A model generated the notes under the pieces. That model had not been told where the DNA came from. It worked only from the letters and a program-made list of their open reading frames with translations, and ran no database searches. From Streptomyces sp. NBC_00239 (GTDB taxonomy: Bacteria; Actinomycetota; Actinomycetes; Streptomycetales; Streptomycetaceae): a DNA stretch of 64,000 nt. The stretch's first letter is position 1. Each line of letters opens with the position of its first letter. The position numbers and the translations under genes were made by a program. The stretch lies in assembly GCF_036194065.1 (NCBI RefSeq), contig NZ_CP108097.1:1-64000 (forward strand), written 5' to 3'. Positions 25,769 to 45,819 of the stretch are shown piece by piece.

Positions 25769-26725
25769 ATGCAGGATGCGGGCGTGCGCCGGACGGCGCA
25801 CGAGATCACCGTGGCGGTCCCGGCGGCCACGGTCCACCGGCTGATCGCCGACGTGGACAACTGGCCGCGGACCTTCCCCGACACCGTCCACGTCGCCCTG
25901 GAGGCGGCGCCCGAAGGTGAGCAGCGGCTGCGGATCTGGGAGGCCGCCGACGGCGGCGAGCCGCAGGTCCGTACGCTGCGCCGGATCGTCCAGGACGACG
26001 AACTGCGGGTCAATTTCGAGCAGTTGACGAACGAGCCGCCGGTGGCCTCACTGGGCGGCGCCTGGCTCGTGGAGCCGGCCGGCGAGGACTCCTCGCGGGT
26101 GCGGCTGCTGCACGAGTTCCGGGCGGCCGGCGAGGGCGCCGCGGCCGATGCGGTGCTCGACGCGATCGCCGTACGGGTCGGGCGCGAGGCGCAGGACACC
26201 CTCGCGGCGTTGAAGGAGAACGTGGAGGCCGTCCACGCCAGCGAGGACGTCACCTTCTCCTTCGAGGACACCGTCCACATCGACGGCAGCGCCAAGGACG
26301 TCTACGACTTCATCAACGAAGCCGACCTCTGGCACGAACGCCTCCCCCACGTCGCGACCGTCCGCCTCACCGAGGACACCCCCGGCCTCCAGACCCTCGA
26401 AATGGACACCCGGGCAAAAGACGGCTCCACCCACACCACCAAGTCCCACCGCGTGACCTTCCCCCACCACAAGATCGCCTACAAGCAGGTCACCCTCCCC
26501 GCCCTCATGACCCTCCACACCGGCTACTGGACCTTCCAGGAGACCGACAACGGCGTCAGCGCCTCCTCCCAGCACACCGTCACCCTCAACACCGCCAACA
26601 TCGCCCGCATCCTCGGCGACCAGGCCACCACCGCCGACGCCCGCGCCTACGTCCACCAAGCCCTCTCCACCAACAGCACCGCCACCCTCCACCACGCCAA
26701 GGCCTACGCGGAGAGCGGCCGCTGA
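25769..26725 (+). CDS. Didomain aromatase/cyclase (copy with duplicated C-terminal domain)
   Basis: 318 residues, two StAR-like (Bet v 1) domains, the ActVII/JadD/UrdL architecture. Domain 1 (about 10-145) opens HEITVAVPAATVHRLIADVDNWP; domain 2 (about 150-315) opens EDVTFSFEDTVHIDG. Codons from 26201 to 26713 (residues ~145-315) are a base-for-base copy of the C-terminal domain of the cyclase at 36161-37096, while domain 1 is clearly different. The copied part has a C-ending codon style unlike domain 1. ATG follows GAGGAG at 25755-25760. The TGA overlaps the ATG of the PPTase. Likely role: ring closure/aromatisation of the polyketide chain. Confidence 0.92.
   Translation: MQDAGVRRTAHEITVAVPAATVHRLIADVDNWPRTFPDTVHVALEAAPEGEQRLRIWEAADGGEPQVRTLRRIVQDDELRVNFEQLTNEPPVASLGGAWLVEPAGEDSSRVRLLHEFRAAGEGAAADAVLDAIAVRVGREAQDTLAALKENVEAVHASEDVTFSFEDTVHIDGSAKDVYDFINEADLWHERLPHVATVRLTEDTPGLQTLEMDTRAKDGSTHTTKSHRVTFPHHKIAYKQVTLPALMTLHTGYWTFQETDNGVSASSQHTVTLNTANIARILGDQATTADARAYVHQALSTNSTATLHHAKAYAESGR
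26201..26713 (+). repeat. 513-bp perfect inverted duplication, copy A
   Basis: Identical, as far as I can compare base by base, to the reverse complement of 36173-36685. Both are 513 bp, so there are no indels. It covers the whole C-terminal cyclase domain and stops abruptly on both sides. Confidence 0.93.
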
Positions 26726-27546
26726 TGGCGGTGGCGAACACGCTCTCCGTGGGCCACGGGGAGCTGGACGTATGGCTGCTGCCGCCCCCCGACTCACCGC
26801 GCGACGTGCCGGTGGGCGAACTGGACGCGAAGGAGATGCAGCGGGCCGAGGCCTACCGCCGGCCCGACGACCGGCGGATGTACACGGCGGCCCACGTCGG
26901 GCTGCGCAGGGTGCTCGCCGTCTACACCGGCATCGCACCGCACCTGCTGTGCATCACCGGCGAGAAGCACGACGGGCTGGGCGGCCGCAACGGCCGGCCG
27001 CGCGTCCTCGGGGTGCCCGGCGCCCCGCAGTTCTCGCTGTCGCACAGCCACGGGCTGGCGCTGGTGGCTGTGGCGGGCAGCCGGATCGGGGCCGACGTCC
27101 AGCGGATCCCCGACCCGGCGACCGCCGCGGCCTGCCTGCCCGCGCTGCACCCGGCGGAGCGGGCGGAGCTGGAGGAGCTCCACGGGTCCGAGCAGACGGT
27201 CGCCTTCGGGCGGCTGTGGACCCGCAAGGAGGCGTACCTCAAGGGGCTGGGCACCGGGCTGGCCCGGGGCGCGGACCTCGACTACCTGGGCGAGTACGAC
27301 GCCTCCCGGCGCCCCGAGGGCTGGGTGGTGGGCAACCTGCCGCTGTGCGCGAGCCATGTCGCGGCGGTCGCCGTGCTGGGCAGCGGGGACCGGCGCATCG
27401 TGATGCGGGCGGTGCCGGACACGCTGCTGTACGCGCGGGAGGCGGCTGAGCGGATTGCCGGGGTCGAGCCGGGGTTGCACACCGTGTTGCGTGACCTGCG
27501 GGGGCGGGGCGGGGCGGCCGCCGCCGCCGGGCGGGCCGTGGCCTGA
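26725..27546 (+). CDS. Sfp-type phosphopantetheinyl transferase
   Basis: 273 residues. The 4'-phosphopantetheinyl transferase core is visible: FSLSHSHGLALVAVA near 103-117, RIGADVQRIPD (usual GVDVE, here GADVQ) near 120, and the acid/base block LWTRKEAYLKGLGTGL near 164. It loads holo-ACP by transferring the CoA arm. The equivalent in jadomycin is JadM. ATG overlaps the cyclase stop (TGATG), so it is translated with it. A strong terminator follows at 27571-27606. Confidence 0.92.
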   Translation: MAVANTLSVGHGELDVWLLPPPDSPRDVPVGELDAKEMQRAEAYRRPDDRRMYTAAHVGLRRVLAVYTGIAPHLLCITGEKHDGLGGRNGRPRVLGVPGAPQFSLSHSHGLALVAVAGSRIGADVQRIPDPATAAACLPALHPAERAELEELHGSEQTVAFGRLWTRKEAYLKGLGTGLARGADLDYLGEYDASRRPEGWVVGNLPLCASHVAAVAVLGSGDRRIVMRAVPDTLLYAREAAERIAGVEPGLHTVLRDLRGRGGAAAAAGRAVA

Positions 27547-27570
27547 GCGGCCTGCTCCGCCGCAACGCGC

Positions 27571-27606
27571 CGAGGGGCCGGACTTCCTGAGAAGTCCGGC
27601 CCCTCG
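27571..27606. terminator. Strong terminator hairpin
   Basis: GAGGGGCCGGACTTC (27572-27586) pairs perfectly with GAAGTCCGGCCCCTC (27591-27605), extended by one more pair, with a 4-nt loop. It follows the PPTase gene by 25 bp. Confidence 0.9.
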
Positions 27607-27785
27607 GGCGTGCGGGTGGCCGTACGGCGTTTGCGGCGCGGGGATTGGGCCCGAGCCCACTCCGGCCTCGCCGGTGCCTTGGGGCGCAACCCCCAGCCTT
27701 GTCGGCGCTGCGTGCGGGAAATCCAGCCTCGCCGGCGTTTGAGGCGCGGGGTTTGGGGCTGAGCCCCAAGCAACCCGGCTGACGC

Positions 27786-28137
27786 CGGGCACCGGGCTCC
27801 GCCCGGACCCGCTCCTCAAACGCCGGAGGGGCTGAAGATGCGCGGGGTCGCCGGGCTCTGCCCGGGCCCGCTCCTCAAACGCCGGAGGGGCTGAAGATGC
27901 GCGGGGTCGCCGGGCTCCGCCCGGGCCCGCTCCTCAAACGCCGGAGGGGCTGAAGATGCGCGGGGTCGCCGGGCTCCGCCCGGGCCCGCTCCTCAAACGC
28001 CGGAGGGGCTGAAGATGCGCGGGGTCGCCGGGCTCTGCCCGGGCCCGCTCCTCAAACGCCGGAGGGGCTGAAGATGCGCGGGGTTGCCGGGCTCTGCCGG
28101 GGCCCGCTCCTCAAACGCCGGAGGGGCTGAAGATGCG
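27786..28137. repeat. 59-bp tandem repeat, six copies
   Basis: CTCCTCAAACGCCGGAGGGG recurs at 27812, 27871, 27930, 27989, 28048 and 28107, exactly 59 bp apart. Each is joined to GCTGAAGATGCGCGGGG and a CCGGGCTCTGCCCGG hairpin. Copies differ by one or two bases. The unit contains a variant of the dispersed CTCAAACGCCGG element. Confidence 0.92.
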
Positions 28138-28153
28138 GGTTGCAGGTGGCGGG

Positions 28154-28384
28154 TCAGGCGGCGGAGTGCCAGGTTCGGGGGCCTTCGAAGCCGGGTACGC
28201 GGTCGGGGCGGCGCCAGCGGGCGGAGGCCTGGTGGCGGCGGGCCAGGTCGTCGGTGCCGGCGCCGGGGCCGGCGCCGCGGGCGAGCAGGACGGCCGTGAG
28301 GGCGGCGAGTTCCTCCGGGGAGGGGTCGCCCTTGACGACGCGCAGCAGGTCCACGGGTGCGGCGGGCTGTCCGTTCTCGTTCAC
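28154..28384 (-). CDS. Acyl-CoA carboxylase epsilon subunit
   Basis: 76 residues. Short acidic/Pro start, then VDLLRVVKGDPSPEELAALTAVLLAR (residues ~11-36), the signature of the actinobacterial AccE/PccE stabilising subunit. The Trp/His-rich tail (RWRRPDRVPGF) is also typical. It lies 16 bp after the beta subunit gene, so it is co-transcribed. It should strengthen the complex of the beta subunit here with the biotin-carrying subunit at 41541. Confidence 0.92.
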   Translation of the reverse strand: MNENGQPAAPVDLLRVVKGDPSPEELAALTAVLLARGAGPGAGTDDLARRHQASARWRRPDRVPGFEGPRTWHSAA

Positions 28385-28400
28385 GGTGTGCTCCTCACGT

Positions 28401-29972
28401 CTACTGGGGCGGGTTGCCGTGCTTGCGGCGGGGCAGGTCGGCGTGCTTGGAGGCGAGCATCGCGAGCGAGCGGGCGAGGACCTGGCGGGTCTCGGCGGGG
28501 TCGATGACGTCGTCGACCAGGCCGCGCTCGGCCGCGTAGTACGGGTGGACGAGCTCGCGCTTGTACTGGTCGATCTTCTCCTGGCGCATCGCGTCCGGAT
28601 CGTCGGCGGCGGCGATCTCGCGGCGGAAGACGACGTTGGCGGCGCCTTCCGCGCCCATCACGGCGATCTCGTTGGTGGGCCAGGCCAGCGCGATGTCGGC
28701 GCCGATGGACCGGGAGTCCATGACGATGTACGCGCCGCCGTAGGCCTTGCGCAGCACCACCGAGACGCGCGGGACGGTGGCGTTGCAGTACGCGTACAGC
28801 AGCTTGGCGCCGCGGCGGATGATTCCCTCGTGCTCCTGGTCGACGCCGGGCAGGAAGCCGGGCACGTCCACGAGGGTGACCAGCGGGATGTTGAAGGCGT
28901 CGCAGAACTGCACGAACCGCGCGCCCTTCTCGCTGGCGCGGATGTCCAGGACGCCGGCCATCGCGGCGGGCTGGTTGGCGACGATGCCGACCGTGTGGCC
29001 GTCGATGCGGGCCAGGCCCACGACGATGTTCTGCGCCCAGGCCGCGTGCACCTCCATGAACTCGCTGTCGTCGACGAGTTCCTCGATGACCCCGCGGATG
29101 TCGTACGAGCGGTTGCCGTCGGCGGGGACCAGGTCGTGCAGGGCCTCGCAGGGGCGGTCGGCGGGGTCGCCGGTGCGGGCGGCCGGCGGCAGCTCGCGGT
29201 TGTTGGAGGGGAGCAGCGAGATCAGGTAGCGGACCTCGGCCAGGCAGGTCTCCTCGTCGTCGTAGACGAAGTGCGCGACGCCGGAGGTGCCGGCGTGCAC
29301 GTCGGCGCCGCCGAGGCCGTTCTGGCTGATCTCCTCGCCGGTCACGGCGCGGACCACGTCCGGGCCGGTGATGAACATCTGGGAGATGTCGCGGACGGCG
29401 AAGATGAAGTCGGTCAGGGCCGGGGAGTACGCGGCGCCGCCGGCGCAGGGGCCGAGCATCACGGAGATCTGCGGGATGACCCCGGAGGCCTTGGTGTTGC
29501 GCTGGAAGATGCCGCCGTACCCGGCGAGCGCGGAGACGCCCTCCTGGATGCGGGCGCCCGCGCCGTCGTTCAAGGAGACCAGCGGGGCACCGGCCGCGAT
29601 GGCCATGTCCATGATCTTGTGGATCTTCGCGGCGTGGGCCTCGCCCAGCGCGCCGCCGAAGACCCGGAAGTCGTGGGCGTAGACGAAGACCGTGCGGCCC
29701 TCGACGGTGCCCCAGCCGGTGACCACGCCGTCGCCGTACGGCTTCTTCGCCTCCAGCCCGAAGCCGGTGGCCCGGTGCCGGCGCAGCGACTCCACCTCGG
29801 CGAAGCTGCCCTTGTCCAGCAGCAGGGTGATCCGCTCGTGGGCGGTCAGCTTGCCCTTGGCGTGCTGGCGTTCGGTGGCCCGGGGGTCCAGGCCGTGGCG
29901 GGCCTCGTCCTTGCGGGCCTGGAGCTCGGTGAGGCGTTCGGTGAGCCGGGCCTCGGGTGTCGCGGGCGGCAT
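28401..29972 (-). CDS. Acyl-CoA carboxylase beta (carboxyltransferase) subunit
   Basis: 523 residues, AccB/PccB family. The N-terminal carboxyltransferase half holds FGGALGEAHAAKIHKIMD and GAGARIQEGVSALAGYG with the oxyanion-hole glycines (~150-165). The C-terminal half holds ADVHAGTSGVAHFV and KAYGGAYIVMDSRSIGAD. It transfers carboxyl from biotin to acetyl- or propionyl-CoA. Together with 41541 it would supply malonyl-CoA to the minimal PKS; the jadomycin equivalent is JadN. A direct decarboxylase-like role in tailoring has been proposed for such proteins and cannot be excluded. Confidence 0.93.
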   Translation of the reverse strand: MPPATPEARLTERLTELQARKDEARHGLDPRATERQHAKGKLTAHERITLLLDKGSFAEVESLRRHRATGFGLEAKKPYGDGVVTGWGTVEGRTVFVYAHDFRVFGGALGEAHAAKIHKIMDMAIAAGAPLVSLNDGAGARIQEGVSALAGYGGIFQRNTKASGVIPQISVMLGPCAGGAAYSPALTDFIFAVRDISQMFITGPDVVRAVTGEEISQNGLGGADVHAGTSGVAHFVYDDEETCLAEVRYLISLLPSNNRELPPAARTGDPADRPCEALHDLVPADGNRSYDIRGVIEELVDDSEFMEVHAAWAQNIVVGLARIDGHTVGIVANQPAAMAGVLDIRASEKGARFVQFCDAFNIPLVTLVDVPGFLPGVDQEHEGIIRRGAKLLYAYCNATVPRVSVVLRKAYGGAYIVMDSRSIGADIALAWPTNEIAVMGAEGAANVVFRREIAAADDPDAMRQEKIDQYKRELVHPYYAAERGLVDDVIDPAETRQVLARSLAMLASKHADLPRRKHGNPPQ

Positions 29973-30040
29973 CTTCGGGTCTCCTGTCGGGTGGGTGGCG
30001 GGGCGGCGGGGCGGGCTGCGGACGCGTGAGCGGTCCGGGC

Positions 30041-30394
30041 TCAGACGCCCGCGGGGGCCGGTTCGAGGTGCTTGGCGAGCAGTTCGGCGAGGCCGGTGAC
30101 CGTACCGTCGAGTAGGTCTTCGGCGGCCAGCGGGACGCTCAGGTCCCGCTGGATCCCGCGGACCAGGCTCTCGGCGTTGAGCAGGTCCAGTCCCTGGTTG
30201 CGCAGGGGCTGGTGGGGGCCGGTGCGGTGGCCCGGCGGCACCTGGAGGAGCTGGTCCAGGTGCAGGCGCAGGCAGTGGGCGAGGGTGGCGGTGCGCAGCT
30301 CGGGGCTCATGGCCCGCAGGTCGCGCAGGGCGGGCAGGTGCCCGAGGGTGCCGTTCGCCGTGCCGTGGGCGCTCTGGGCGGTGTCGTCGGTCAT
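30041..30394 (-). CDS. Acyl-carrier-protein-like protein lacking the carrier serine
   Basis: 117 residues. Residues ~28-112 follow the modular-PKS type ACP pattern: a first helix SPELRTATLAHCLRLHLDQL, then LRNQGLDLLNAESLVRGI where GxDSL is expected, then LSVPLAAEDLLDG and a last helix. The phosphopantetheine Ser position is Leu71 (codon CTG at 30182-30184), so it cannot be loaded in the usual way. The frame is intact, with a good ribosome context, and the start overlaps the exporter stop (ATGA), so it looks maintained, not decayed. A scaffold, docking or regulatory role is possible. The true function is unknown. Confidence 0.7.
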   Translation of the reverse strand: MTDDTAQSAHGTANGTLGHLPALRDLRAMSPELRTATLAHCLRLHLDQLLQVPPGHRTGPHQPLRNQGLDLLNAESLVRGIQRDLSVPLAAEDLLDGTVTGLAELLAKHLEPAPAGV

Positions 30395-31830
30395 GTCTGT
30401 CGCTGCCTTTCGTCGGGTGCGGGCCGGCCCGCCCGGTGGTGTGTCGGCCCGTCAGGGCCGACTGTCCGGGCGGGCGGAAGAGGCGGGAGCGCGAGCGGCT
30501 TGAGCGGATCTGAGGCGGCCCCGTGTCCGGCCTCGAGCGCGGGCGCCGGAGCAGCCGCCGGGGCGGCCGGCGGGGCGGGCACGGGAGCGGCCGCCGGGGC
30601 GGGTGTGGCGGGGCGGCGGCGGGTGGTGGCCGGCCAGGCGGCCAGGGCCGCGGCGAGCGAGACCAGGCCGCCCGCGGTCAGGCCCCAGCGGGCGCCGTGG
30701 CGGGCGCTGAGCCAGCCCACGAACAGGGCGCCCAGGGGGGTGAGACCTTGCAGGATCAGCGTGTACAGGGCCATCACCCGGCCGCGCAGCCGCGGGTCGG
30801 TGCCGAGCTGGATGCGGTGGTTGGCGGCCTGCGCGAAGTAGATGCTCGCGAAGCCGGTCAGGGCGAGGAGGACGGCCGCCGAGACGTAGCCGGGTGCCCC
30901 GCCGGCGGCCGCCTCCAGGACGCCGAACGCGAGGGCGGAGCCGGTGACCGTACGGGCGGCGGGCCGGCTGCGGCGGCCGGTGGTGGCGAACGCGGCGGCC
31001 AGCGAGCCGGTCGCGAAGGCGGTGGTGAGCAGGCCGAAGGCGGTGGCGTCGGCGTGGAAGACGGTTTTGGCGAGCAGCGGCAGGGTCAGCTGGAAGTTGA
31101 AGCCGAACAGGCCGACGACCGCCACCAGGCCCAGCGTGACGACCAGGTCGGGCCGGGTGCGTACGTACCGCAGGCCGTCGCGGATGCCGGTGCCGCGGCC
31201 GGCGGGCGGGGTGAGGTGCAGCTCGGCGGGGCGGATCGCGCGCAGCCCGGCGACGGTGGCCAGGTAGCTGGCGGCGTTGAGGGCCAGCGCCCAGCCGGTG
31301 CCGGCGACGGAGATGAGCACCCCGGCGAGGGCGGGGCCGGTGACCCGCGCGATGTTGAAGTAGGCGGCGCTGAGCGCGGAGGCGTTGGGCAGCAGGTCGG
31401 GGCCGACGAGCTCGCCGACGAACGCCATCCGCGCCGGCACCTCGAAGGCGTTGACGGTGCCCAGGCCCAGGGCGAACAGGTACAGCTGCCAGAGCTGGAC
31501 CGCGTCGGCGAGGACGAGGACGGCCAGCGCCAGGGCGAGCGCGCCGGAGGCGAGGTTGGCGAGGACCAGCAGCTGCCGTTTGGGGCGGCGGTCGGCGAGC
31601 CGGCCGCCGTGCAGGGTGAGCAGCAGCATGGGCGTGAACTGGAGGGCGGTGAGGGTGCCGAGGGCGCCGGCGGAGTCTCCCGTCAGGTCGAGGACCAGCC
31701 AGTCCTGGGAGACCACCGCCATCCAGGTGCCGGCCACCGAGACGGTCTGTCCGGCGGCGAACAGCCGGAAGTTGCGCACGGCGAGGGAGCGCAGGGGCCG
31801 CGGGTACGTCCGGGGACGTGTCGTCTCCAT
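30391..31830 (-). CDS. MFS exporter (enterobactin-exporter-like, 10-12 TM)
   Basis: 479 residues. About 11 membrane helices in the first ~400, with GGRLADRRPKRQ (motif A) near 75-86 and an Arg-rich loop RLRGRVMALYT near 345. The C-terminal ~75 residues are an Ala/Pro-rich repetitive tail and probably disordered. Second exporter of the cluster, embedded in the PKS operon. Stop overlaps the ACP-like gene by 4 bp; start lies 12 bp from the hydrolase stop. Confidence 0.9.
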   Translation of the reverse strand: METTRPRTYPRPLRSLAVRNFRLFAAGQTVSVAGTWMAVVSQDWLVLDLTGDSAGALGTLTALQFTPMLLLTLHGGRLADRRPKRQLLVLANLASGALALALAVLVLADAVQLWQLYLFALGLGTVNAFEVPARMAFVGELVGPDLLPNASALSAAYFNIARVTGPALAGVLISVAGTGWALALNAASYLATVAGLRAIRPAELHLTPPAGRGTGIRDGLRYVRTRPDLVVTLGLVAVVGLFGFNFQLTLPLLAKTVFHADATAFGLLTTAFATGSLAAAFATTGRRSRPAARTVTGSALAFGVLEAAAGGAPGYVSAAVLLALTGFASIYFAQAANHRIQLGTDPRLRGRVMALYTLILQGLTPLGALFVGWLSARHGARWGLTAGGLVSLAAALAAWPATTRRRPATPAPAAAPVPAPPAAPAAAPAPALEAGHGAASDPLKPLALPPLPPARTVGPDGPTHHRAGRPAPDERQRQT

Positions 31831-31842
31831 GGGCTCTGCCGG

Positions 31843-32790
31843 TCAGCCGGCCGCGCCGGCGCGCGCCAGGCACTCCTCCAGGAACGCGAGGGCGCGCAGG
31901 TGGTAGGAGCGGGCGACCCAGCCGAGGCTGATGTTGTGGCCGGCGTCGGGCTGCCGGTCGACGGTGACGAACGGCGCGGCGCCGAACAGGCCGGCGAGGC
32001 CGTCGAGGTCGTCCTCGCCGTGCCGCCACCACAGTTCGTGTTCGGCGAAGGTGAGCCGTACGGGGACGGTGACGGCGGCCGCGGCGGTGGTGAAGCTCTC
32101 GGGCCAGCGGGCGGCCTCGGCGCGCTCGCGCACGGGCATGGGGGCGACGAGGGCGGCCGCGTCGCGGAAGGTGTTGGGCGGGTAGAAGCGCAGGGCGCCC
32201 CAGTTGCGCTTCCAGTGGCTGTGCACGTGGGGGTCGCGGTGGTCGCCGGGGTCGACGGCGTAGTCGCGGCCGCAGCCGTTGATGTCGAGGCCGAGCAGGG
32301 GCGGGGCGGCGGGGGCGTTAACGGCGTTAACGCCGTTAACGCCGGCGCCTCGCGGGCGGGCCCGGTCGGCGGCGTAGGTGAGGGCGAGTTTGCCGCCGAA
32401 GGAGTGCGCGACGAGGAACAGCCCGGCGCCGGTCGGGAAGCGGCCGGCGAGGTGGGTGAGGGCCGCGGTGAGGGTGGCGGACTGCTCGGCGAGGCTCTGG
32501 CCGCGGGGCAGCCGGGCGGCGGAGAGCCCGTAGCCGGGGCGGTCGACGGAGACGACGGTGTAGCCGAGGCGGGCGCCGAGGGTCAGCAGGGAGACGTCGG
32601 GGTGGGCCTGCCCGTCGAAGTAGCCGGCGCTCATGCCGCCGCCGTGGACGGCGACGATGGTGGCGCGGGGCGGTCCGGCGGGCTGGGCGATGAGCGCGGA
32701 CAGGGTGATGTCGCCGGCGTCCAGCGTGACGGGGCGGACGCCGGGGGACATCGACGGGGCGACGACCGGGGCGATGGTGGGGGCGCTCAT
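31843..32790 (-). CDS. Alpha/beta hydrolase
   Basis: 315 residues. IVAVHGGGMSAGYFDG near 46-61 gives the oxyanion hole, the nucleophile elbow LVAHSFGGKLAL lies near 128-139, and the catalytic His is in DAGHNISLGW near 285. An insert around residues 150-160 reads NGVNAVN and is encoded by a perfect 30-bp palindrome (32314-32343). It may hydrolyse an ester/lactone or release the polyketide; the substrate is unknown. It lies between FAD monooxygenase and exporter genes in the operon. Confidence 0.85.
   Translation of the reverse strand: MSAPTIAPVVAPSMSPGVRPVTLDAGDITLSALIAQPAGPPRATIVAVHGGGMSAGYFDGQAHPDVSLLTLGARLGYTVVSVDRPGYGLSAARLPRGQSLAEQSATLTAALTHLAGRFPTGAGLFLVAHSFGGKLALTYAADRARPRGAGVNGVNAVNAPAAPPLLGLDINGCGRDYAVDPGDHRDPHVHSHWKRNWGALRFYPPNTFRDAAALVAPMPVRERAEAARWPESFTTAAAAVTVPVRLTFAEHELWWRHGEDDLDGLAGLFGAAPFVTVDRQPDAGHNISLGWVARSYHLRALAFLEECLARAGAAG
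32314..32343. repeat. 30-bp perfect palindrome inside the hydrolase gene
   Basis: Three GTTAAC hexamers linked by GGC/GCC make a self-complementary 30-mer (starts GGCGTTAACG, ends CGTTAACGCC). It is locally AT-rich in a GC-rich gene and keeps the frame. Possibly an inserted small element or a binding site. Confidence 0.9.
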
Positions 32791-33044
32791 GCGGTACCGC
32801 CCCGGGGGCGGGTGGTGGGGCGGCGGGTCATTGTTCCTCCTGGTGCGGGTACGTACGTGCGGGCCTGGCCGGGCCGGGCCTTTCGGGGCTCCGCCCCGGA
32901 CCCCGCGCCTCAAACGCCGGCGGGGCTGGGTTTCGCCCGGCCAGGCCAGGGCTGTGGCGGGGACGGCGCCTCGAACGGCGGTGATCCAGCCTCGCCGGCG
33001 TTTGAGGCGCGGGTGCGGGGCTGGGATGCGCCTCAGGTGGGTGG
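32791..33044. repeat. Intergenic pair of inverted dispersed elements
   Basis: CGCCTCAAACGCCGGCGGGG (32903-32922, continuing CTGG) and its reverse complement CCAGCCTCGCCGGCGTTTGA (32986-33005, continuing GGCGCG) face each other across ~60 bp. They could form a long hairpin in the transcript between the FAD monooxygenase and the hydrolase. No gene. Confidence 0.75.
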
Positions 33045-34529
33045 TCAGGCGGAGGTGCCGAACCAGGTGGTGAGGGCCTCCTTCGCGGCGGACGGGTCGG
33101 TGCCGGCCCAGGCGACGTAGCCGTCGGGGCGGACCAGGACGGCGGTGGCGCCGGCGAAGACGTCGGCGCCGGTGGCGGGGGTGCCGGTGACGGTGATCAC
33201 GCGGTCCTTCCAGGCGGCGGCGCACTCGCGCAGCGCCGGGTCGTCGGCGAGGTCGATGAGCACGCCCTGGGCCGCGTGCAGCAGTTCGGGGGTGCGGACC
33301 TCGCCGGCGGCGGTGGCCAGGGTGCGCGGCGGGAGCCGGCGGCCGGTCAGCGGGTGCGCGTCGGCGGGCGTGCCGGCGGGCGTGCCGGCGGGCGCGTCGT
33401 AGCGGACGTCGAGGTGGCTGACCACGCCGGCGAGGTGGCGCTTGACCGGGTCCAGCGCGAGGAGTTCGGTGAACAGGGCGCGCATCGGCTCGGACTCCTC
33501 GCCGCCGAGGAAGACGGTGCCCTGGGCGAGGGTGTTGGTGAGCAGGCGCTGCCCGGCCGGGTGCCGCTCGCCGTGGTAGGTGTCGAGGAGGCCTTCGGGG
33601 GCCCAGCCCTGGACGACGGCGGCGAGCTTCCAGCCGAGGTTGGCGGCGTCCTGGACGCCGGTGCTCAGGCCCTGGCCGGCGGCCGGGAGGTGGATGTGGG
33701 CGGCGTCGCCGGCGAGCAGGACGCGGCCGCGCCGGTACTCGGTGGCCTGCCGGGTGGCGTCGCTGAAGGAGCTGACCCAGTCGGCGCCGCCGCCGGAGAT
33801 GTCCTCGCCGGTGAGGCGCTGCCAGGCGGCGGCGACCTCGGCGAACTCGGGGGTCTCGCTGCGGTCGGCGGGCGGCGCGCCGTGCTCGCACACGATGATG
33901 CGGTCCACGCCCTCGGCGAGCGGCGCGGCCATCACCATGCCGGCGGGGACGCGTTCGCCGAGGAAGCGCGGCGGGATGTTGCAGCCGGTGACGTCGGCGA
34001 GGTACATGCCGCGGGTGGCGTCGGTGCCGGGGAAGTCGAAGCCGCCGGCCTTGCGGACCTTGCTGTGGCCGCCGTCGGTGCCCACCAGATAGGCGGCGCG
34101 CAGCCGCTCCTCGCCGTCGGGGCCGGCGACGGTGACGGTGACGCCGTCCTCGTCCTGGTCGAGGGCGAGGAACTCCACGCCGCGCCGGATGTCGGCGCCG
34201 AGTTCGGCGGCCCATTCGGACAGCACGGCCTCGGTGCGGGACTGCGGGATGCCGCGGGCCCCGAAGTGGGCGTCCTCCAGCACGGTGTAGTCGAAGACCA
34301 CGCCGCCGAAGTGGCCCATCGGGCTGGTCTCCACGTCGCCGAAGCGCGGGACGAGGCCGCGCTGGTCGAAGGTCTCCAGGGCGCGGGCGGTGAAGCCGAG
34401 CCCCCGCGACTGGCCGGTGGGCTGCGCGAGCTTCTCGACGACGACGACGTGCGCGCCGCCGAGGCGCAGTTCCCCGGCCAGCATCAGGCCGGTGGGCCCG
34501 GCGCCGACGATGATGACGTCCGCGTCCAT
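33045..34529 (-). CDS. Class A FAD monooxygenase (PgaE/JadH-like)
   Basis: 494 residues. GAGPTGLMLAGELRLGGA near 9-26, LVGTDGGHSKVRK near 155-167 and GRVLLAGDAAHIHLPAAGQG near 279-298, plus the C-terminal thioredoxin-like domain. Clearly related to the protein at 17851 (same overall layout, GVPQ/GIPQSRTEA block). A small APAGTPAGTPAD repeat occurs near residue 385. Likely hydroxylation or ring-modifying oxidation of the angular intermediate. 28 bp downstream of the next FAD monooxygenase gene. Confidence 0.92.
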   Translation of the reverse strand: MDADVIIVGAGPTGLMLAGELRLGGAHVVVVEKLAQPTGQSRGLGFTARALETFDQRGLVPRFGDVETSPMGHFGGVVFDYTVLEDAHFGARGIPQSRTEAVLSEWAAELGADIRRGVEFLALDQDEDGVTVTVAGPDGEERLRAAYLVGTDGGHSKVRKAGGFDFPGTDATRGMYLADVTGCNIPPRFLGERVPAGMVMAAPLAEGVDRIIVCEHGAPPADRSETPEFAEVAAAWQRLTGEDISGGGADWVSSFSDATRQATEYRRGRVLLAGDAAHIHLPAAGQGLSTGVQDAANLGWKLAAVVQGWAPEGLLDTYHGERHPAGQRLLTNTLAQGTVFLGGEESEPMRALFTELLALDPVKRHLAGVVSHLDVRYDAPAGTPAGTPADAHPLTGRRLPPRTLATAAGEVRTPELLHAAQGVLIDLADDPALRECAAAWKDRVITVTGTPATGADVFAGATAVLVRPDGYVAWAGTDPSAAKEALTTWFGTSA

Positions 34530-34557
34530 GTGGTCTCTTCCTCGTTCCTGCCGCGCC

Positions 34558-36159
34558 TCAGCGGGCGGCGGCGGTTGCGGTGGCGATCGGGGCGTGGGTG
34601 GTACGGGGGCTCGCGGCGGCGCCGAACCAGCGGCGCAGCGCGGCGTGCAGGCCGGCGGTGTCGCTGCCGGGGCCGGCCCAGGCGACGTAGCCGTCGGGGC
34701 GTACCAGCAGGGCCTCGCCGGGGGTGAGCGGGGTGCCGGGGGCCGGGCGGGCGGTGATCTGGGTGACGCGGTGGGCCCAGGGGGCGGCGCCGAGGTCGGT
34801 GCCGGTGCCGAGGTCGAGGAGCAGGCCGTGGCCGGTGCGCAGCAGGTCGGTGGTGCGCAGGGGGCCGCCGGGGTCCGGGGTGGGGAACGCGGCGGGTCCG
34901 GCGGTGAGTTCGGCGGCGGCGAGCGGGGCGGGGGGCAGCCGGCGGCCGGTGAGGGGGTGGCCGGCGCCGTCGGGCAGGTCGTAGCGGATGCCGAGGCCGC
35001 TGATGGTGCCGGCGAGGGCGGCCCGTACGGGTTCCAGGGCGATCAGCTCGGCGAGGACGGCGCGGGCGGGTTCGATCTCGGGGCCGCCGAGGAGCAGCTG
35101 GGTCTGGGCGCGGATGTTGGCGAGGACCTCGGCGCCGACGGCGTGCCGTTCGGTGTGGTAGCTGTCGAGGAGGCCTTCGGGGGCGTCGCCGCGGATCTCG
35201 GCGGCGAGTTTCCAGCCGAGGTTGAAGGAGTCCTGGACGCCGAGGTTGAGGGCCTGGCCGCCGCTGGGCATCTGCTGGTGGGCGGCGTCGCCGGCGAAGA
35301 GGATCCGGCCGTGCCGGTACCGGTCGAGCTGCCGGTTGGCGTCGCCGAAGGCGTTGACCCAGTGGGGCAGGCCGTGGCCGATGTCCTCGCCGGTGACGCG
35401 CTGCCAGGCCTCGGTGACCTCGGTGAAGGCGGGGGCGCCGGTGCGGGGCCGGGCGGGGGTTCCGTACGCGTGGACCATGACGCGGGTGACGCCGTCGCGG
35501 GTCGCGGAGATGGCGAGGCCCGCTTCGAGGCGCTGGAAGCGGCGGTCGGGGGTGTCGATGCCGGTGACGTCGGCGCGCAGGAGTTCGCGGGTGGCGTCCT
35601 GGCCGGGGAAGTGGGCGCCGGTCAGGCGCCGTACGGTGCTGTCCTCGCCGTCGCAGCCGACCAGGTAGCGGGCGGTGATGCGGACGGGCCCGTCGGGGCC
35701 GAGGGCGTCGGCGGTGACGTGGTCGGGGCCCGCGGTGAGCGCGACGAGCTGGTGGCGGCGGTGGAGGCGGGCGCCGAGTTCGGCGGCCCGGTCCTGGAGG
35801 AGTTCCTCGGTGCGCCGCTGGAGGACCTTCCACTGGCCCGGGTGGGAGCTGGGCAGGCCGAGGTCGAGTCCGATGCCGCCGAAGTGGCCGCGGGGCTCGC
35901 GCGGCGGGCTGCCGAGCGGGGCCAGCAGGCCGCGGGAGTCGAGGATCTCCATGGTGCGGGCGTGCAGGGTGGAGGCCCGCGACTCGGTGGTGGGGCCGGG
36001 GCGCTGGTCGAGCACGAGGGCGTCGGCGCCGCCGAGCCGCAGCTCGCAGGCGAGCATCAGCCCGGCGGGGCCGGCGCCGACCACCAGGACGTCGGTGTGC
36101 AGGGTCGCCACGGCGGGCGTGCGGGCGGTGTCCGGGGCGTCCCGATGGTCGGCGGCCAT
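34558..36159 (-). CDS. Class A FAD monooxygenase
   Basis: 533 residues. GAGPAGLMLACELRLGGA near 28-45, LVGCDGEDSTVRRL near 175 and GRILFAGDAAHQQMPSGGQ near 297. It is longer and more diverged than the other two, with an Arg-rich RRHQLVAL segment after the FAD domain. It may act as an early oxygenase (JadF/PgaE-type) or a bond-cleaving one. Starts 1 bp after the cyclase stop, so it is tightly coupled. Confidence 0.92.
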   Translation of the reverse strand: MAADHRDAPDTARTPAVATLHTDVLVVGAGPAGLMLACELRLGGADALVLDQRPGPTTESRASTLHARTMEILDSRGLLAPLGSPPREPRGHFGGIGLDLGLPSSHPGQWKVLQRRTEELLQDRAAELGARLHRRHQLVALTAGPDHVTADALGPDGPVRITARYLVGCDGEDSTVRRLTGAHFPGQDATRELLRADVTGIDTPDRRFQRLEAGLAISATRDGVTRVMVHAYGTPARPRTGAPAFTEVTEAWQRVTGEDIGHGLPHWVNAFGDANRQLDRYRHGRILFAGDAAHQQMPSGGQALNLGVQDSFNLGWKLAAEIRGDAPEGLLDSYHTERHAVGAEVLANIRAQTQLLLGGPEIEPARAVLAELIALEPVRAALAGTISGLGIRYDLPDGAGHPLTGRRLPPAPLAAAELTAGPAAFPTPDPGGPLRTTDLLRTGHGLLLDLGTGTDLGAAPWAHRVTQITARPAPGTPLTPGEALLVRPDGYVAWAGPGSDTAGLHAALRRWFGAAASPRTTHAPIATATAAAR

Positions 36160-36160
36160 G

Positions 36161-37096
36161 TCAGTTCTTGCCCTCCGCGTAGGCCTTGGCGTGGTGGAGG
36201 GTGGCGGTGCTGTTGGTGGAGAGGGCTTGGTGGACGTAGGCGCGGGCGTCGGCGGTGGTGGCCTGGTCGCCGAGGATGCGGGCGATGTTGGCGGTGTTGA
36301 GGGTGACGGTGTGCTGGGAGGAGGCGCTGACGCCGTTGTCGGTCTCCTGGAAGGTCCAGTAGCCGGTGTGGAGGGTCATGAGGGCGGGGAGGGTGACCTG
36401 CTTGTAGGCGATCTTGTGGTGGGGGAAGGTCACGCGGTGGGACTTGGTGGTGTGGGTGGAGCCGTCTTTTGCCCGGGTGTCCATTTCGAGGGTCTGGAGG
36501 CCGGGGGTGTCCTCGGTGAGGCGGACGGTCGCGACGTGGGGGAGGCGTTCGTGCCAGAGGTCGGCTTCGTTGATGAAGTCGTAGACGTCCTTGGCGCTGC
36601 CGTCGATGTGGACGGTGTCCTCGAAGGAGAAGGTGACGTCCTCGCTGGCGTGGACGGCCTCCACGTTCTCCTTCAACGCCGCGAGCTCGGAGCGGCTGTT
36701 GCGGTCGACGGCCTCGTCGATCCACAGCAGGTCGTGCGCGTCGTCGTCGATGGCGCGGTAGTCGTGCAGCAGCCGCACCCGCGAGGAGCCGTCGCCCAGC
36801 GGCTCGATGATCCACTCGCCGCCCATGGCGGCGATGGGCTTGGTGGTGACCTCCTGGCGGAAGGTGATGCGCAGGCCCTCGGGGTCGAGTTCGCGGCGCG
36901 AGGTCCAGTTCTTGGGCTGGCCGTTGGCGGTGGCCCAGATCCGGATCCGCTCCTGGGAGCCGTTCGAGTCCACCCGGTCCACGTGGATCGTGGGCGGGAA
37001 GATCCGCGGCCAGTTGGTGACCTCCGCCAGCAGCCGGTACACGTCCGGTGCGGGCGCGTCGATGGTGATCTCGTGCTCAACCTCGCGGGTCGTCAT
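36161..37096 (-). CDS. Didomain aromatase/cyclase of the PKS core
   Basis: 311 residues. Domain 1 (3-145) opens REVEHEITIDAPAPDVYRLL; domain 2 (148-308) opens EDVTFSFEDTVHIDG and is identical, protein and DNA, to that of the cyclase at 25769. This is the copy in the canonical position (KS, KS, ACP, KR, CYC), so it is probably the ancestral aromatase for the first ring. GAGGAAGG lies before ATG 37094-37096. Transcribed with the KR gene 55 bp upstream. Confidence 0.93.
   Translation of the reverse strand: MTTREVEHEITIDAPAPDVYRLLAEVTNWPRIFPPTIHVDRVDSNGSQERIRIWATANGQPKNWTSRRELDPEGLRITFRQEVTTKPIAAMGGEWIIEPLGDGSSRVRLLHDYRAIDDDAHDLLWIDEAVDRNSRSELAALKENVEAVHASEDVTFSFEDTVHIDGSAKDVYDFINEADLWHERLPHVATVRLTEDTPGLQTLEMDTRAKDGSTHTTKSHRVTFPHHKIAYKQVTLPALMTLHTGYWTFQETDNGVSASSQHTVTLNTANIARILGDQATTADARAYVHQALSTNSTATLHHAKAYAEGKN
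36173..36685 (-). repeat. 513-bp perfect inverted duplication, copy B
   Basis: Reverse complement of 26201-26713 with no differences detected. The copies face each other about 9.5 kb apart, so recombination between them would invert the hydrolase-exporter-carboxylase segment. Confidence 0.93.
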
Positions 37097-37151: not shown

Positions 37152-37937
37152 TCAGAAGTTGCCGAGGCCGCCGCAGACGTTGATCGCCTGGGCGGTGACG
37201 GAGGCGGCGGTGTCGGAGGCGAGGTAGGCGACCATGCCGGCGACCTCCTCCGGGGTGGAGTAGCGGCCGAGGGGGATCTTCGACTGGAACTTGTCGAGGA
37301 TGGCGTCCTCGGAGGTGTCGTAGGCGGCGGCGTAGCCGGCCCGGACGCGCTGGGCCATCGGGGTCTCGACGTAGCCGGGGCAGACCGCGTTGACGGTGAT
37401 GCCGGTGGGGGCCAGCTCGTTGCCGAGGGCCTTGGTGAAGCCGACCACGCCGTGCTTGGAGGCGGAGTAGGGGGCGCCGAGCACCACGCCCTGCTTGCCG
37501 GCGGTGGAGGCGATGTTGATGATGCGGCCGCGGTTCTTGTGGCGCATGCCGCCGGTGTTGAGGACTTCCTTGGTCAGGCGGAAGACACTGTTGAGGTTGG
37601 TGTCGATGACGTCCGCCCACAGCTCCTCGTCGATGTCGGCGGTGACGCCGCCACCGGACCGGCCGGCGTTGTTGACCAGTACGTCGACGGTGCCGAAGCG
37701 GTCGACGGCGGCCTGGACGAACGCGGCGGCGGAGGCCGTGTCCCGTACGTCGAGGACCGAGCCGTCGGCGTCGATGCCCTCGGCCTGAAGCTCCTTGACG
37801 GTGGCCGCGACGTTGTCGGCGTTGCGCGCGCCGATGAAGACCTGGTGGCCGGAGGCGGCCAGCGCCCGGGCGGCCGCCAGGCCGATGCCGCTGGTCGCGC
37901 CGGTGATGAGGGCGACCCGCTTCTCCTGCAACGACAT
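37152..37937 (-). CDS. Type II PKS ketoreductase (ActIII-like)
   Basis: 261 residues, SDR. TGATSGIG at 12-19, NNAG at 89-92, and catalytic Asn114, Ser144, Tyr157 and Lys161 at exactly the ActKR positions. The ActKR Pro94-Gly95-Gly96 loop reads Ser94-Gly-Gly. The C-terminus VCGGLGNF matches the family. Expected to reduce the C-9 keto group of the nascent chain. Position between ACP and cyclase genes is standard for angucycline clusters. Confidence 0.95.
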   Translation of the reverse strand: MSLQEKRVALITGATSGIGLAAARALAASGHQVFIGARNADNVAATVKELQAEGIDADGSVLDVRDTASAAAFVQAAVDRFGTVDVLVNNAGRSGGGVTADIDEELWADVIDTNLNSVFRLTKEVLNTGGMRHKNRGRIINIASTAGKQGVVLGAPYSASKHGVVGFTKALGNELAPTGITVNAVCPGYVETPMAQRVRAGYAAAYDTSEDAILDKFQSKIPLGRYSTPEEVAGMVAYLASDTAASVTAQAINVCGGLGNF

Positions 37938-38069: not shown

Positions 38070-38345
38070 TCAGGCGGCGGTGGGAACGCCCGCCGGCAGC
38101 GCCGCGTTGACGGCCGCGATCAGCGCCCGCGGGGTGTCGGCGTCGGTGAGCAGGTCCTCGTCGAGGGCGATGTCGTACTCGCGCTCGATGCGGCTGCCGG
38201 TCTCCAGCAGGGCGAGGGACTCGTAGCCGAGCGCCTCGAACGGGATGTCGAGGATGTCGCCGTCGAGGTCGACGTCCTCGTCGGCGCCGGCGCCTTCGAG
38301 GAGGATCCGGCGCAGGTCGGCGAGGGTGAATTCGGTGGTGGACAC
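38070..38345 (-). CDS. Type II PKS acyl carrier protein
   Basis: 91 residues. LADLRRILLEGAG helix, DLDGDILDIPFEALGYESLALLE with the phosphopantetheine Ser43, and IALDEDLLTDADTPRALIAAVNAAL. The residue before Ser is Glu (ESL) instead of the usual Asp. Substrate of the PPTase at 26725. Third gene of the minimal PKS. Confidence 0.95.
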   Translation of the reverse strand: MSTTEFTLADLRRILLEGAGADEDVDLDGDILDIPFEALGYESLALLETGSRIEREYDIALDEDLLTDADTPRALIAAVNAALPAGVPTAA

Positions 38346-38604: not shown

Positions 38605-39819
38605 TCAGTCGGCGGAGCGCACCACCACGGCGGAGTTGAAGCCGCCGTAGCCGCGGGCGATGACCACGGCGGTGCGCACGGAGGCGGTGCGGGGCTGGCC
38701 CACGACCAGGTCGAGGGCGTAGTCCTCGGCCGGGTGCACGTTGACGGTGGGCGGGATGACGCCCTCCTCGATGGCCAGCAGGGCGGTGGCGACGTCCAGC
38801 GGCGCCGCGCCCGAGTACAGCCGGCCGGTCATCGTCTTGGGGGCGGTGACGGGGACGCCGCGCTCGCCGAAGACCGCGGCGAGCGCCTCGGCCTCGATCC
38901 GGTCGAGTTCGGGCACTCCGGCCGCGTCGGCGAACACCACGTCCACGTCGGCCGCCTGGACGCCCGCGTCCTCCAGGGCGATCTCGATGGCCTTGCGCAG
39001 GGCGGGCTCGCGCCCGAGCTCAGGCGCCGCGTCGAAGGTGGACCCGTACCCGGCGATCTCGCCGTAGACCTTCGCGCCGCGCTCGCGCGCCGACTCGGCC
39101 GACTCCATGATCAGGATGGCGCCGCCCTCGCCGGGGACGTAGCCCGAGGCGTCGGCGTCGAACGGCAGGAAGGCGCGGGCGGGTTCGTCGCTGGTGCTCA
39201 GCCGCTTGCCGGCCAGCTGCGCCACCCAGCCCCAGGGGCAGATCGACGCGTCGACGCCGCCGGACACGATCATCCGGGTGCCCTTGCGGATCAGGCGGCG
39301 GCCCTGCGCGAGGGCGTCCAGGCCGCCGGCCTCGTCGCTGACGATGACCCCGCTGGGGCCCTTGAGCCCGTTGCGGATGGAGATCTGGCCGCTGTTGACG
39401 GCGTAGAACCAGGCGAAGGACTGGTACGCGCTGACGTACTGGCTGCCCTGGCCCCACAGCTTCTGCAGCTCGCCCTGGCCGAACTCGAAGCCGCCCGAGG
39501 AGCTGGCGGTGACCACGCCCATGTCGTACTCGGCGAGCTGCTCCGGGTCGACGGAGGCGTCCGCGAGCGCCCACTCGGCGGCGACGAGCGCGAGGCGTGT
39601 CATGTGGTCGGTCTGCGGCAGCAGCCGGCTGGGCAGCAGCGCCCCGGCGTCGAAGCCGGGGACCTCGCCCGCCAGGGTCGAGGGGTAGGAGCTCGGGTCG
39701 AAGCGGGTGACGCGCCCGATGCCGTTCTTGCCGCTCTTGGTCGCGGCCCAGTAGTCCTTGGTGCCCAGCCCGTTGGGCGCGGTGATGCCCAGGCCGGTCA
39801 CTACCACCGAGGTGGTCAT
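38605..39819 (-). CDS. Ketosynthase beta / chain length factor
   Basis: 404 residues, KS fold without the active Cys. The conserved Gln of chain length factors (EQAGG, cf. Gln161 of the actinorhodin CLF) is Glu163 here ([10 protein letters not shown], codon GAG). Other CLF hallmarks are intact: YDMGVVTA near 98-105, [21 protein letters not shown] block near 133-149, [11 protein letters not shown], and [13 protein letters not shown]. Overlaps the KS-alpha stop by 4 bp (ATGA). It pairs with KS-alpha to set chain length. Confidence 0.95.
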
Positions 39820-41087
39820 GCCACGCTCCTCTCGGGACGCGCCAGCACCATGGCGCTCTGGAATCCGCCGAAGCCGCTGCCGACGGTCAGGACGGCGTCG
39901 GTGAGCTGCTCGCGGGCGACCAGCGGGACGTAGTCGAGGTCGCACTCGGGGTCCGGGGTGTGCAGGTTGGCGGTCGGCGGCACCACGTGGTTCTCCATCG
40001 CCAGCGCGGACGCGGCGATCTCGATGGAGCCGATCGCGCCGAGGGAGTGCCCCACCATGGACTTGATGGAGCTGACCGGCGTCCGGTACGCGTGGTCGCC
40101 CAGGCTCCGCTTGAACGCGGCGGTCTCGTGCCGGTCGTTCTGCTTGGTGCCCGAGCCGTGCGCGTTGATGTAGTCGATCTCGGTCGGGTTCATCCGCGCC
40201 TCGTCGAGGGCGACGCGGATCGCCTCGGCCATCTCGGCGCCGTCCGGCCGCAGACCGGTCATGTGGTACGCGTTGGAGCGGGTGGCGTAGCCGGCGATCT
40301 CGGCGTAGATGTGCGCGCCGCGCTTCTTGGCGCTTTCCAGCTCCTCCAGGACGAACACGGCCGCGCCCTCGCCGAGCACGAAGCCGTTGCGGGTGCCGTC
40401 GAAGGGGCGGGAGGCGTGCGCCGGGTCGTCGTGGCGGGGGGTGGTCGCCTTGATCGCGTCGAAGCAGGCCATGGTGATCGGCGAGATCGGGGCGTCCGAG
40501 GAGCCGGCGATCATCACGTCCACGGAGCCTTCGCGGATCAGGTCCACGGCGTGCCCGACGGAGTCGATGCCGGAGGTGCAGCCGGTGGAGACCACGGTGC
40601 TCGGGCCCTGGGCGCCGACCTCGCGGGAGACCTCCGCCGCGAAGGAGCTCGGGACCAGGTAGTTGTACAGGTGCGGGACGGCGTACTCGTGGTCGACGAG
40701 GTGCAGCCGGCCGCCGTCGCTGACGACGTTGTACTCCTCGTCCAGGCCCATGGTGGCGCCGACGGCGCTGCCGACGGTGACACCCACCCGGTAGGGGTCG
40801 TACGTCTCCAGGCTGATGCCGCTGTCGGCGACCGCGCCGCGGGCCGCGACCACCGCGAACTGCGCGGCCCGGTCCATGCGGCGGATCTCCTGCGGGCCGA
40901 GGCCGTGTTCCGCCGGGTCGAAGTCGATCTCGGCGGCGACCTTGGAGCGGAAGGGGCTCGGGTCGAAGAAGGTGATGCCGCGGGTGGCGGTACGGCCTTC
41001 ACTCAGCAGGTTCCAGAAGTTCTTGGCCCCGACACCGCCGGGGGCGAGCACCTCGATGCCGGTGATGACCACGCGTCGGGGAGTCAC
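39816..41087 (-). CDS. Ketosynthase alpha
   Basis: 423 residues. Active site Cys170 in [11 protein letters not shown], His310 in YINAHGSGT and His347 in [11 protein letters not shown]. Full length with [16 protein letters not shown]. Catalyses the Claisen condensations with the CLF. GTG start at 41085-41087 overlaps the cyclase stop (GTGA). Order cyclase-KSalpha-KSbeta-ACP-KR-CYC is that of urdamycin/jadomycin-type clusters. Confidence 0.96.
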
Positions 41088-41413
41088 GCGGACGCCTCCC
41101 AGTGGTAGAAGCGCTTGGCCATGGCGTCGGCCGGGGAGCGCCAGGTGGCGGGGTCGTACGCTTCGATGAAGGGCTTGAGGTCCTCGCTGATCTGTACGAA
41201 GCGCTGGTCGTGCCGCGCGTCCTGGATCAGCCGGTCGCCGTTGTCCTCGTCGAAATCCTGCAAATGAAAGTAGAGACCCCGGTATTCGAAGAGCTGGCGG
41301 CGCCGGGTGCCCATCCGGTGGGGCATGTCGGTTCCGTCGAACTCGCCGAACAGCTTGGCGACGTCGACATTGGAGCTCGGGTCCATCCGAGCCACAATCA
41401 AGGTGCTGTGCAT
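41084..41413 (-). CDS. TcmI-like polyketide cyclase
   Basis: 109 residues, ferredoxin-like cyclase of the TcmI family (as UrdF and JadI). It opens [42 protein letters not shown] lies near 35-54, and the chain ends [10 protein letters not shown]. Acts on the later rings. First gene of the long leftward operon; its promoter is in 41414-41540. Confidence 0.93.
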
Positions 41414-41540
41414 ATGTGCTCCCTCTCCTCATGACCCACGAATTGAATTCAGTATCCCGGGGCCAAAAGTCGGATTTCAACAGTGCCTGTGTCAGGCTTT
41501 TGTCAGACCGCGCAAGAATTGCGCAGCGGAAATAAAACCC
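41414..41540 (-). promoter_or_regulatory. PKS operon promoter with SARP-like box
   Basis: GTGTCAG (41489-41495) and TTGTCAG (41500-41506) are heptamers spaced 11 bp. On the coding strand they read CTGACAA-N4-CTGACAC, the layout of SARP binding sites, about 75-95 bp before the cyclase ATG. This is the only sizeable gap before the core operon. Confidence 0.55.
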
Positions 41541-45529: not shown

Positions 45530-45620
45530 GCGTGGACTCCTGAATCCGAACTGGGCAGGGGTGAGCACGCCGTACGCCTGCAGCCACCCCCCGTGGCAGA
45601 CGAACTGTTGCAGGCCCCAA

Positions 45621-45643
45621 GATACAGACATGTCGGTTCGGTA
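45621..45643. promoter_or_regulatory. ARE-like operator 1 (AfsA-like gene)
   Basis: GATACAGACATGTCGGTTCG followed by GTA is an imperfect inverted repeat similar to autoregulatory elements of gamma-butyrolactone receptors. It is 92 bp upstream of the AfsA-like ATG. Confidence 0.6.
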
Positions 45644-45819
45644 ACTCAAGTAAAGGTTTGGTCTAGGAGCCCAACGGCCCTCCGCGCGGACGCCGGTGGT
45701 GCCCGATCTCTCGGCGGGCCGCGCGGCGCGCTGAGGTCGGACCCCTCCGGACACGTCCTGACGTGCACTGTCTGTGGATCAGGGGGTTTAGGGCGGTCCA
45801 CGGGTGCTCCTTCCGCCAA

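Follow-up and report, generated by a model that had tools for sequence, protein, structure and literature searches.

A C-domain shared by two diverged aromatase/cyclases of a Streptomyces type II polyketide cluster points to recurrent gene conversion

In modular polyketide synthase (PKS) and non-ribosomal peptide synthetase (NRPS) clusters, the KS, AT, A and C domains undergo concerted evolution by internal recombination, according to the available portions of a study whose main text, as far as available, does not use the term 'type II' (PMC4256081). For BexL, a di-domain aromatase, the accessible sections of one paper place aromatase activity in the N-domain and report a pseudocatalytic C-domain hypothesised to give solubility and support (PMC8488855); the available text of a second paper likewise names the N-domain as the active one (PMC12664062). 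Here we analyse two relatives of BexL, g1 and g2, encoded 9.5 kb apart and in opposite orientation within the 64,000 nucleotides (the window) that form the start of contig C3 (303,920 bases; NZ_CP108097.1) of Streptomyces sp. NBC_00239. Their C-domains share a perfect 513-bp inverted repeat and their N-domains are diverged. Comparison with other strains suggests that recurrent gene conversion, confined to the C-domain of these two old paralogs, is with high probability the best explanation.

The repeat and its counterparts in other strains

An ungapped comparison of positions 26201-26713 with the reverse complement of 36173-36685 found 513 of 513 bases identical, bearing out an earlier note on this DNA that had described a perfect inverted duplication. 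The match is maximal, in that it cannot be extended by one base at either end, and in the ungapped flanks only 11-25 of every 50 columns match. No longer inverted repeat is reported in the window, and the 9.3-Mb genome contains two copies; the next matches there are one of 66% over 455 query bases and one of 36 bases. The repeat runs from codon 145 of g1 to three codons short of its stop and covers the same part of g2 in register. A gapped alignment of the two genes is 84% identical over 928 columns, so homology lies on both sides of position 26201, with a sharp step in identity there. The N-domains, which the same note had called diverged, are 61.3% identical at the nucleotide level (408 aligned nt); the C-domains are 98.9% identical (516/522 nt), with all six differences in the last few codons. 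When 366 variable sites were shuffled, the observed run of 124 agreeing sites was reached in 0 of 2000 trials.

A scan of genome contigs with g1 yielded 61 loci, in whose fetched flanks a second aromatase was present in Streptomyces sp. H27-H5 (L005) and, at about 35% identity, at five other loci. The H27-H5 locus carries the same inverted pair and has exactly the sequence of the first 15,187 bases of contig 25 of assembly G167 (L096), and contig 12 of assembly G370, labelled NBC_01549 (L095), also has the inverted pair of the window. Queried with C-domain DNA, 125 of 392 genus genomes (the window's own included) gave matches at E 1e-40; besides the window, only G167 and G370 had two inverted sites, 8.8-8.9 kb apart, in a scan that scored at most two candidates per genome and may hide further pairs. 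Ten more genomes with single matches of 63-66% came from a scan of 395 relatives (largely the same genomes), and a scan of 393 genus genomes, again mostly the same set, added two at 68-69% (G383 and G140). Among 394 genomes drawn from the family, the window's own was the sole match at E 1e-133. In the WM4235 assembly, two contigs, one from the g1 side and one from the g2 side, share their final 99 bases, and a third stops inside the repeat from the other side, as expected when a short-read assembler meets a long repeat with identical copies. In the compared stretches WM4235 and H27-H5 are 97.7-99.5% identical, so WM4235 is not an independent lineage.

The comparison with related strains that the earlier note had proposed as a check thus yielded the same syntenic inverted pair, with C-domains alike within each strain, in two other strains. 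Gene order and orientation match those of the window over 15 genes in H27-H5 and 16 genes in NBC_01549. Within these two strains the C-domains agree at 515/522 (98.7%) and 488/522 (93.5%) nucleotides, and between the three strains C-domain identity is 80-88%. The N-domains show the reverse order: 61-66% between paralogs within strains, and 72-79% (g1) and 86-90% (g2) between orthologs of different strains. These N-domain values come from trimmed alignments; an earlier table with untrimmed upstream N sequence was not used, and the C-domain values of both tables agree.

Many C-domain columns are invariant in 37 aligned sequences, and g1 orthologs are more conserved in the C-domain than in the N-domain, the fast part (median amino acid identity 0.83 vs 0.65, 21 pairs), as would be seen if strong purifying selection had simply kept the C-domain slow in both genes. 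Synonymous sites refute that explanation, which we find scarcely credible. Within strains, C-domain synonymous divergence (dS) is 0.003, 0.000 and 0.153, against 0.16-0.51 between C-domain orthologs of different strains, and six neighbouring genes have a between-strain dS of 0.28-0.68 (KSb rows, out of frame with nonsynonymous divergence, dN, above dS, were excluded). Moreover, g2 orthologs are no slower in the C-domain than in the N-domain (median 0.82 vs 0.88, 21 pairs). The low within-strain dS means that the likeness is one of DNA and is younger than these strain splits. Over the tract, paralogs resemble each other more than orthologs do, the borders are sharp with orthologous flanks, and synonymous sites are alike, which are the marks of concerted evolution.

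The earlier note had read the repeat as recent gene conversion or domain swapping. Identity over all 513 bases would suit one recent duplication or domain swap that gave a second C-domain to the window strain only, with nothing recurrent. We regard this as highly unlikely: the homogenised pairs of the other two strains have C-domains 12-20% different in nucleotides from the window's, and the N-domains of g1 and g2 are each orthologous across strains. Conversion is thus well supported and recurs in other strains, and a single swap is insufficient because their pairs are homogenised to a different sequence. The left border of the tract also differs by strain (alignment columns 439, 434 and about 484), in favour of independent events; in all three the right border lies near the gene end. 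In each of the three strains the longest agreeing run of the own DNA pair was reached in 0 of 2000 shuffles.

An artefact in which near-identical copies were collapsed in assembly or polished alike is very improbable. Polishing may remove a handful of differences between repeat copies, but such losses would leave the conclusion unchanged; the contrast between N- and C-domains is present in six other strains, the H27-H5 pair retains one internal C-domain difference and distinct last codons, and five contigs for 9.3 Mb suggest a long-read assembly.

The arrangement invites another explanation, in which the inverted repeats form an inversion switch that swaps the genes behind g1 and g2 (the 4'-phosphopantetheinyl transferase (PPTase) or a monooxygenase) and homogenisation is a by-product of frequent inversion. 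Indeed, the 9.5-kb segment contains both downstream gene groups and leaves both N-domains outside. However, the segment has one orientation in all three strains in which it is resolved (window, L095 and L096, but not WM4235), a small and hence weak sample; no recombinase occurs among the spacer genes examined. We therefore consider such a switch highly improbable. The idea of an inversion-prone segment, raised in the earlier note, is conceivable in principle and goes unsupported by these orientations.

Protein pairs, trees and direction of transfer

At the protein level we compared seven strains: the three with DNA, plus NPDC059443, DSM 116496, NPDC088358 and S. fagopyri by protein. The four protein-only pairs were matched by strain name and longest contig among the best 120 of 1190 and the best 120 of 2489 matches; for rows labelled g1only or g2only, partners were not sought. 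In 7/7 strains the own pair is 93-99% identical in the C-domain and 43-53% in the N-domain. Across the seven, the 146-residue C-domain core differs within pairs at 0, 1, 3, 0, 0, 2 and 0 residues. A tree of N-domains (34 rows) splits the 15 g1 rows from the 19 others at 100/100, and the C-domain tree joins the own pairs of the window, NPDC059443 and DSM 116496. Both trees omit P0011 and P0018 (two of 11 '_x' rows), and P0012 and P0013 entered neither the trees nor the identity comparison. By the approximately unbiased (AU) test, a single clade of all 15 g1 rows is rejected for the C-domain (p 0.0005), and the window's own pair as a clade is rejected for the N-domain (p 1.5e-8).

Several results weigh against a simple picture. 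Four of the seven own pairs have no supported branch in the C-domain tree: those of H27-H5, NPDC088358 and S. fagopyri sit in unresolved forks, and g1 of NBC_01549 groups with g1 of S. mirabilis (86/96), not with its own g2. With the g1 and g2 of close relatives included, four strains still have the own partner as the single nearest C-domain, and in the other three a close relative's g1 (for H27-H5 also a g2) is at least as near. Between the window and H27-H5, C-domain dS is 0.16, below the 0.28-0.53 of neighbouring genes, and exchange between strains may for this reason also play a part. An unusual run of agreeing sites occurs in the g2 pair of the window and NBC_01549 as well (8/2000, in the N-domain), and three more of the 12 between-strain DNA pairs reach 54-90/2000. 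Finally, both copies are available as DNA from three strains only. The nearness of close relatives fits a recurrent conversion that partly predates the splits between some close strains, and it lowers the number of independent events.

The linker of g1 bears on direction. It is g2-like (NVE-type) in the window, H27-H5 and NPDC059443, and of g1's own type in NBC_01549, NPDC088358 and S. fagopyri. Because g1 of the first three strains carries the g2-like linker, we place moderate confidence in a transfer from g2 to g1 there.

Five other same-genome aromatase pairs do not show this contrast between C-domain and N-domain identity. Their nucleotide identities (N, C) are 0.818 and 0.812 in G315, 0.595 and 0.579 at L043, 0.592 and 0.574 at L049, 0.740 and 0.736 for a tandem pair on the window's own contig, and 0.766 and 0.803 for g2 of NBC_01549 and a third aromatase of that strain. 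Against the same third aromatase, g1 of NBC_01549 gives 0.682 and 0.797, the values that a g1 with a g2-like C-domain would give. L046, L050 and L054, which are among the five loci whose second aromatase is distant, were left out of this contrast.

Two candidates for a second case of homogenisation were rejected. The tandem pair just named, a second pair of di-domain aromatase/cyclases on the window's contig (C3 159123-161070; L138 9124-11071), is equally diverged in both domains, at 65% (N) and 63% (C) amino acid identity. The two FAD monooxygenase paralogs stay at 62-68% within the three strains (68.0, 63.5 and 62.4%). The window's value of 68.0% (33045-36159) is slightly above the cross-strain 62-66% and perhaps reflects a short conversion tract.

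Enzymes, mechanism and gene cluster

Two Polyketide_cyc2 stretches are found in each of g1 and g2, and BexL (4xrw) is the closest solved structure by sequence for both. A predicted model of g1 (mean predicted local distance difference test score 92.3, from 37 aligned sequences) has two helix-grip (SRPBCC) domains and, among structures in the PDB, matches BexL best (template modelling score 0.88). On this model the repeat border, residue 145, is not in the linker but within the long helix (residues 123-157) that closes the N-domain. R72 is invariant and R71 nearly so in the 37 aligned sequences, g1 among them; R72 aligns, by sequence and not by structure, to the WTSRR-type stretch of BexL and ZhuI. 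The ratio dN/dS of the N-domain is about 0.41-0.72 for g1 vs 0.25-0.30 for g2 (three strain pairs each). As the N-domain of g1 keeps the WTSRR-type arginines and changes faster than that of g2, g1 is likely to be a working enzyme with another or a relaxed task. The earlier note spoke of a duplicated C-terminal 'cyclase domain'. The domain stands as the repeated unit, and the word 'cyclase' is doubtful, since the C-domain of BexL is reported as pseudocatalytic in the available part of PMC8488855. If the division of labour in BexL holds for g1 and g2, conversion would act on the silent domain only.

We propose that g1 and g2, the second and the core di-domain aromatase/cyclase, respectively, are old paralogs within one type II PKS cluster, and that homologous recombination between them repeatedly transfers the C-domain without exchange of flanks. 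Non-reciprocal recombination of this kind explains the silent-site identity, the tract borders and the unchanged flanks. The left end of the tract would mark the point where the N-domains are too unlike to pair (about 60% identity) and the right end would lie near the gene end, so that only the C-domain is kept alike and the pattern maintains itself. The process would probably be RecA-type conversion without crossover, with g2 the more frequent donor. The C-domain may be a common, catalytically silent scaffold or partner-binding half in which homogenisation is tolerated or favoured, and the N-domains would act on different intermediates. Streptomycetes are not known to have the MutS/MutL mismatch repair that in enteric bacteria aborts conversion between unlike sequences, an absence that would favour conversion. 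More tentatively, the pair could be a constant/variable enzyme system: conversion maintained by selection would keep a non-catalytic docking or hetero-pairing domain identical as the catalytic domains diverge, with g1 serving a different ring or intermediate. We regard this as a possible but rather doubtful extension of recurrent conversion.

Around the pair (Table 1), the core set comprises ketosynthases, an acyl carrier protein, a ketoreductase, g2 and two FAD monooxygenases, plus a Cyclase_polyket-type enzyme. g1 is set apart from these genes on the opposite strand and is followed by the PPTase gene, whose start overlaps it. The core gene set and the relationship to BexL suggest an angucycline-like type II PKS. 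All three parts of the hydrolase-exporter-carboxylase spacer named in the earlier note are present, together with the PPTase, a small PP-binding protein and the two FAD monooxygenases. In the small protein the usual attachment serine is apparently replaced (GLDLL, read by eye). The Cyclase_polyket enzyme falls inside a mechanically listed, over-long ketosynthase open reading frame (ORF), and its presence led us to reject g1 as the substitute for an absent enzyme of that type. For g1 itself, the start ATG was chosen by eye behind an AGGA-rich stretch; the mechanically listed ORF begins at 25739.

Table 1. Features of the aromatase/cyclase pair and its surroundings in the window
Feature	Position	Strand	Basis or remark
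g1, di-domain aromatase/cyclase, second of the cluster, 318 aa	25769..26725	+	Two Polyketide_cyc2 stretches; BexL 4xrw E 2.4e-98
g1 N-domain part, diverged	25769..26200	+	61% nt identity to g2 N-domain
C-domain repeat, g1 copy	26201..26713	+	513/513 identical to g2 copy, maximal exact match
4'-phosphopantetheinyl transferase	26725..27546	+	PF01648; start overlaps g1 stop (TGATG)
Acyl-CoA carboxylase carboxyl-transferase subunit	28401..29972	-	PF01039
Small PP-binding-domain protein	30041..30394	-	PF00550 E 2.9e-4 (weak)
MFS exporter	30391..31830	-	PF05977/PF07690
Alpha/beta hydrolase	31843..32790	-	PF12146/PF00561; start picked by eye
FAD aromatic-ring monooxygenase	33045..34529	-	PF01494, PF21274
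FAD aromatic-ring monooxygenase, directly downstream of g2	34558..36159	-	PF01494, PF21274
g2, di-domain aromatase/cyclase of the core PKS operon, 311 aa	36161..37096	-	Two Polyketide_cyc2 stretches; BexL 4xrw E 8e-131
C-domain repeat, g2 copy, inverted	36173..36685	-	513/513; two genome copies at such identity
g2 N-domain part	36686..37096	-	86-90% nt identity among g2 orthologs, three strains
Ketoreductase	37152..37937	-	PF00106
Putative acyl carrier protein, 91-aa ORF	38070..38345	-	Assignment from size and location; ortholog in L095 and L096
Ketosynthase beta / chain length factor	38605..39945	-	FabF-type family matches; start provisional; alpha/beta by gene order
Ketosynthase alpha	39816..41480	-	FabF-type family matches; ORF start provisional; alpha/beta by gene order
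Cyclase_polyket-type ring cyclase	41084..41413	-	PF04673 E 7e-43

Other observations concern the surroundings. A tandem array of a 59-bp repeat fills 27728-28196, between the PPTase and carboxyl-transferase genes, and the core of its unit, CTCAAACGCCGGAGGGGCTG, recurs singly, with near variants, elsewhere in the window. Tandem arrays of 45-bp and 18-bp units lie at 10151-10825 and 12387-12663. Near the cluster are a tryptophan-halogenase-type FAD protein (16094-17785), an AfsA-domain protein (44504-45754; A-factor-like signal synthesis) and, close to the latter, a TetR-type regulator (46986-47642).

In the plasmid database PLSDB, g1 has matches in 134 records, all below 80%; the single region opened, from S. 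lavendulae pSA3239 (L130), contains a cluster of a different kind. In DSM 116496 relatives of both g1 and g2, and in NBC_01426 a relative of g2, are named as plasmid-borne (P0009, P0037 and P0047), and the cluster may for that reason travel on plasmids. As for the replicon of the window, closely set palindromes occur at the ends of linear Streptomyces replicons, and closely set short palindromes are present at the start (window 1-150) and end (L139 13772-13921) of C3. Relative to shuffles, folding is stronger at the end of C3 that lies in the window (z -4.1) and less clearly so at the other (z -1.5). Terminal inverted repeats of C3 were sought and rejected: a megablast comparison of the opening 14 kb with the final 13.9 kb yielded no more than two short matches, in intergenic repeats.

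Comparison with known systems

Repeatedly, and strain by strain, a shared C-domain sits on two diverged N-domains. This offers a ready-made domain-exchange set with its junction marked to the base, and it suggests that the two kinds of domain can be exchanged at or close to the last N-domain helix. The question addressed by such a set is the role of the pseudocatalytic second domain of di-domain aromatases. There are practical consequences as well: trees built from the C-domains of these enzymes can be misleading, and the repeat may break short-read assemblies.

BexL, the di-domain aromatase of BE-7585A, is the nearest described enzyme to g2 by sequence and to g1 by sequence and fold; the available parts of the papers on it (PMC8488855, PMC12664062) mention neither a paired second aromatase nor domain homogenisation. 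Likewise, the titles and abstract starts searched in the open-licence literature describe no case of gene conversion between aromatases of type II PKS. For the process, the tufA and tufB genes of Salmonella are a close parallel, as far as the accessible text of PMC5485169 describes them: two copies on the same chromosome undergo non-reciprocal transfer in mostly contiguous tracts. The tuf genes are near-identical over their full length, whereas here half of the gene is diverged and unconverted. In modular PKS and NRPS clusters, according to the available portions of PMC4256081, domains of one cluster become alike and group by cluster, not by position, as they do here. Those domains belong to repeated modules of an assembly line; in the window, two separate small type II enzymes are encoded in inverted orientation, and one of their two domains is homogenised. 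The pair is a case of domain-limited concerted evolution between two type II PKS enzymes, of a kind known from modular systems, and it extends concerted evolution from modular assembly lines to the accessory enzymes of type II PKS clusters.

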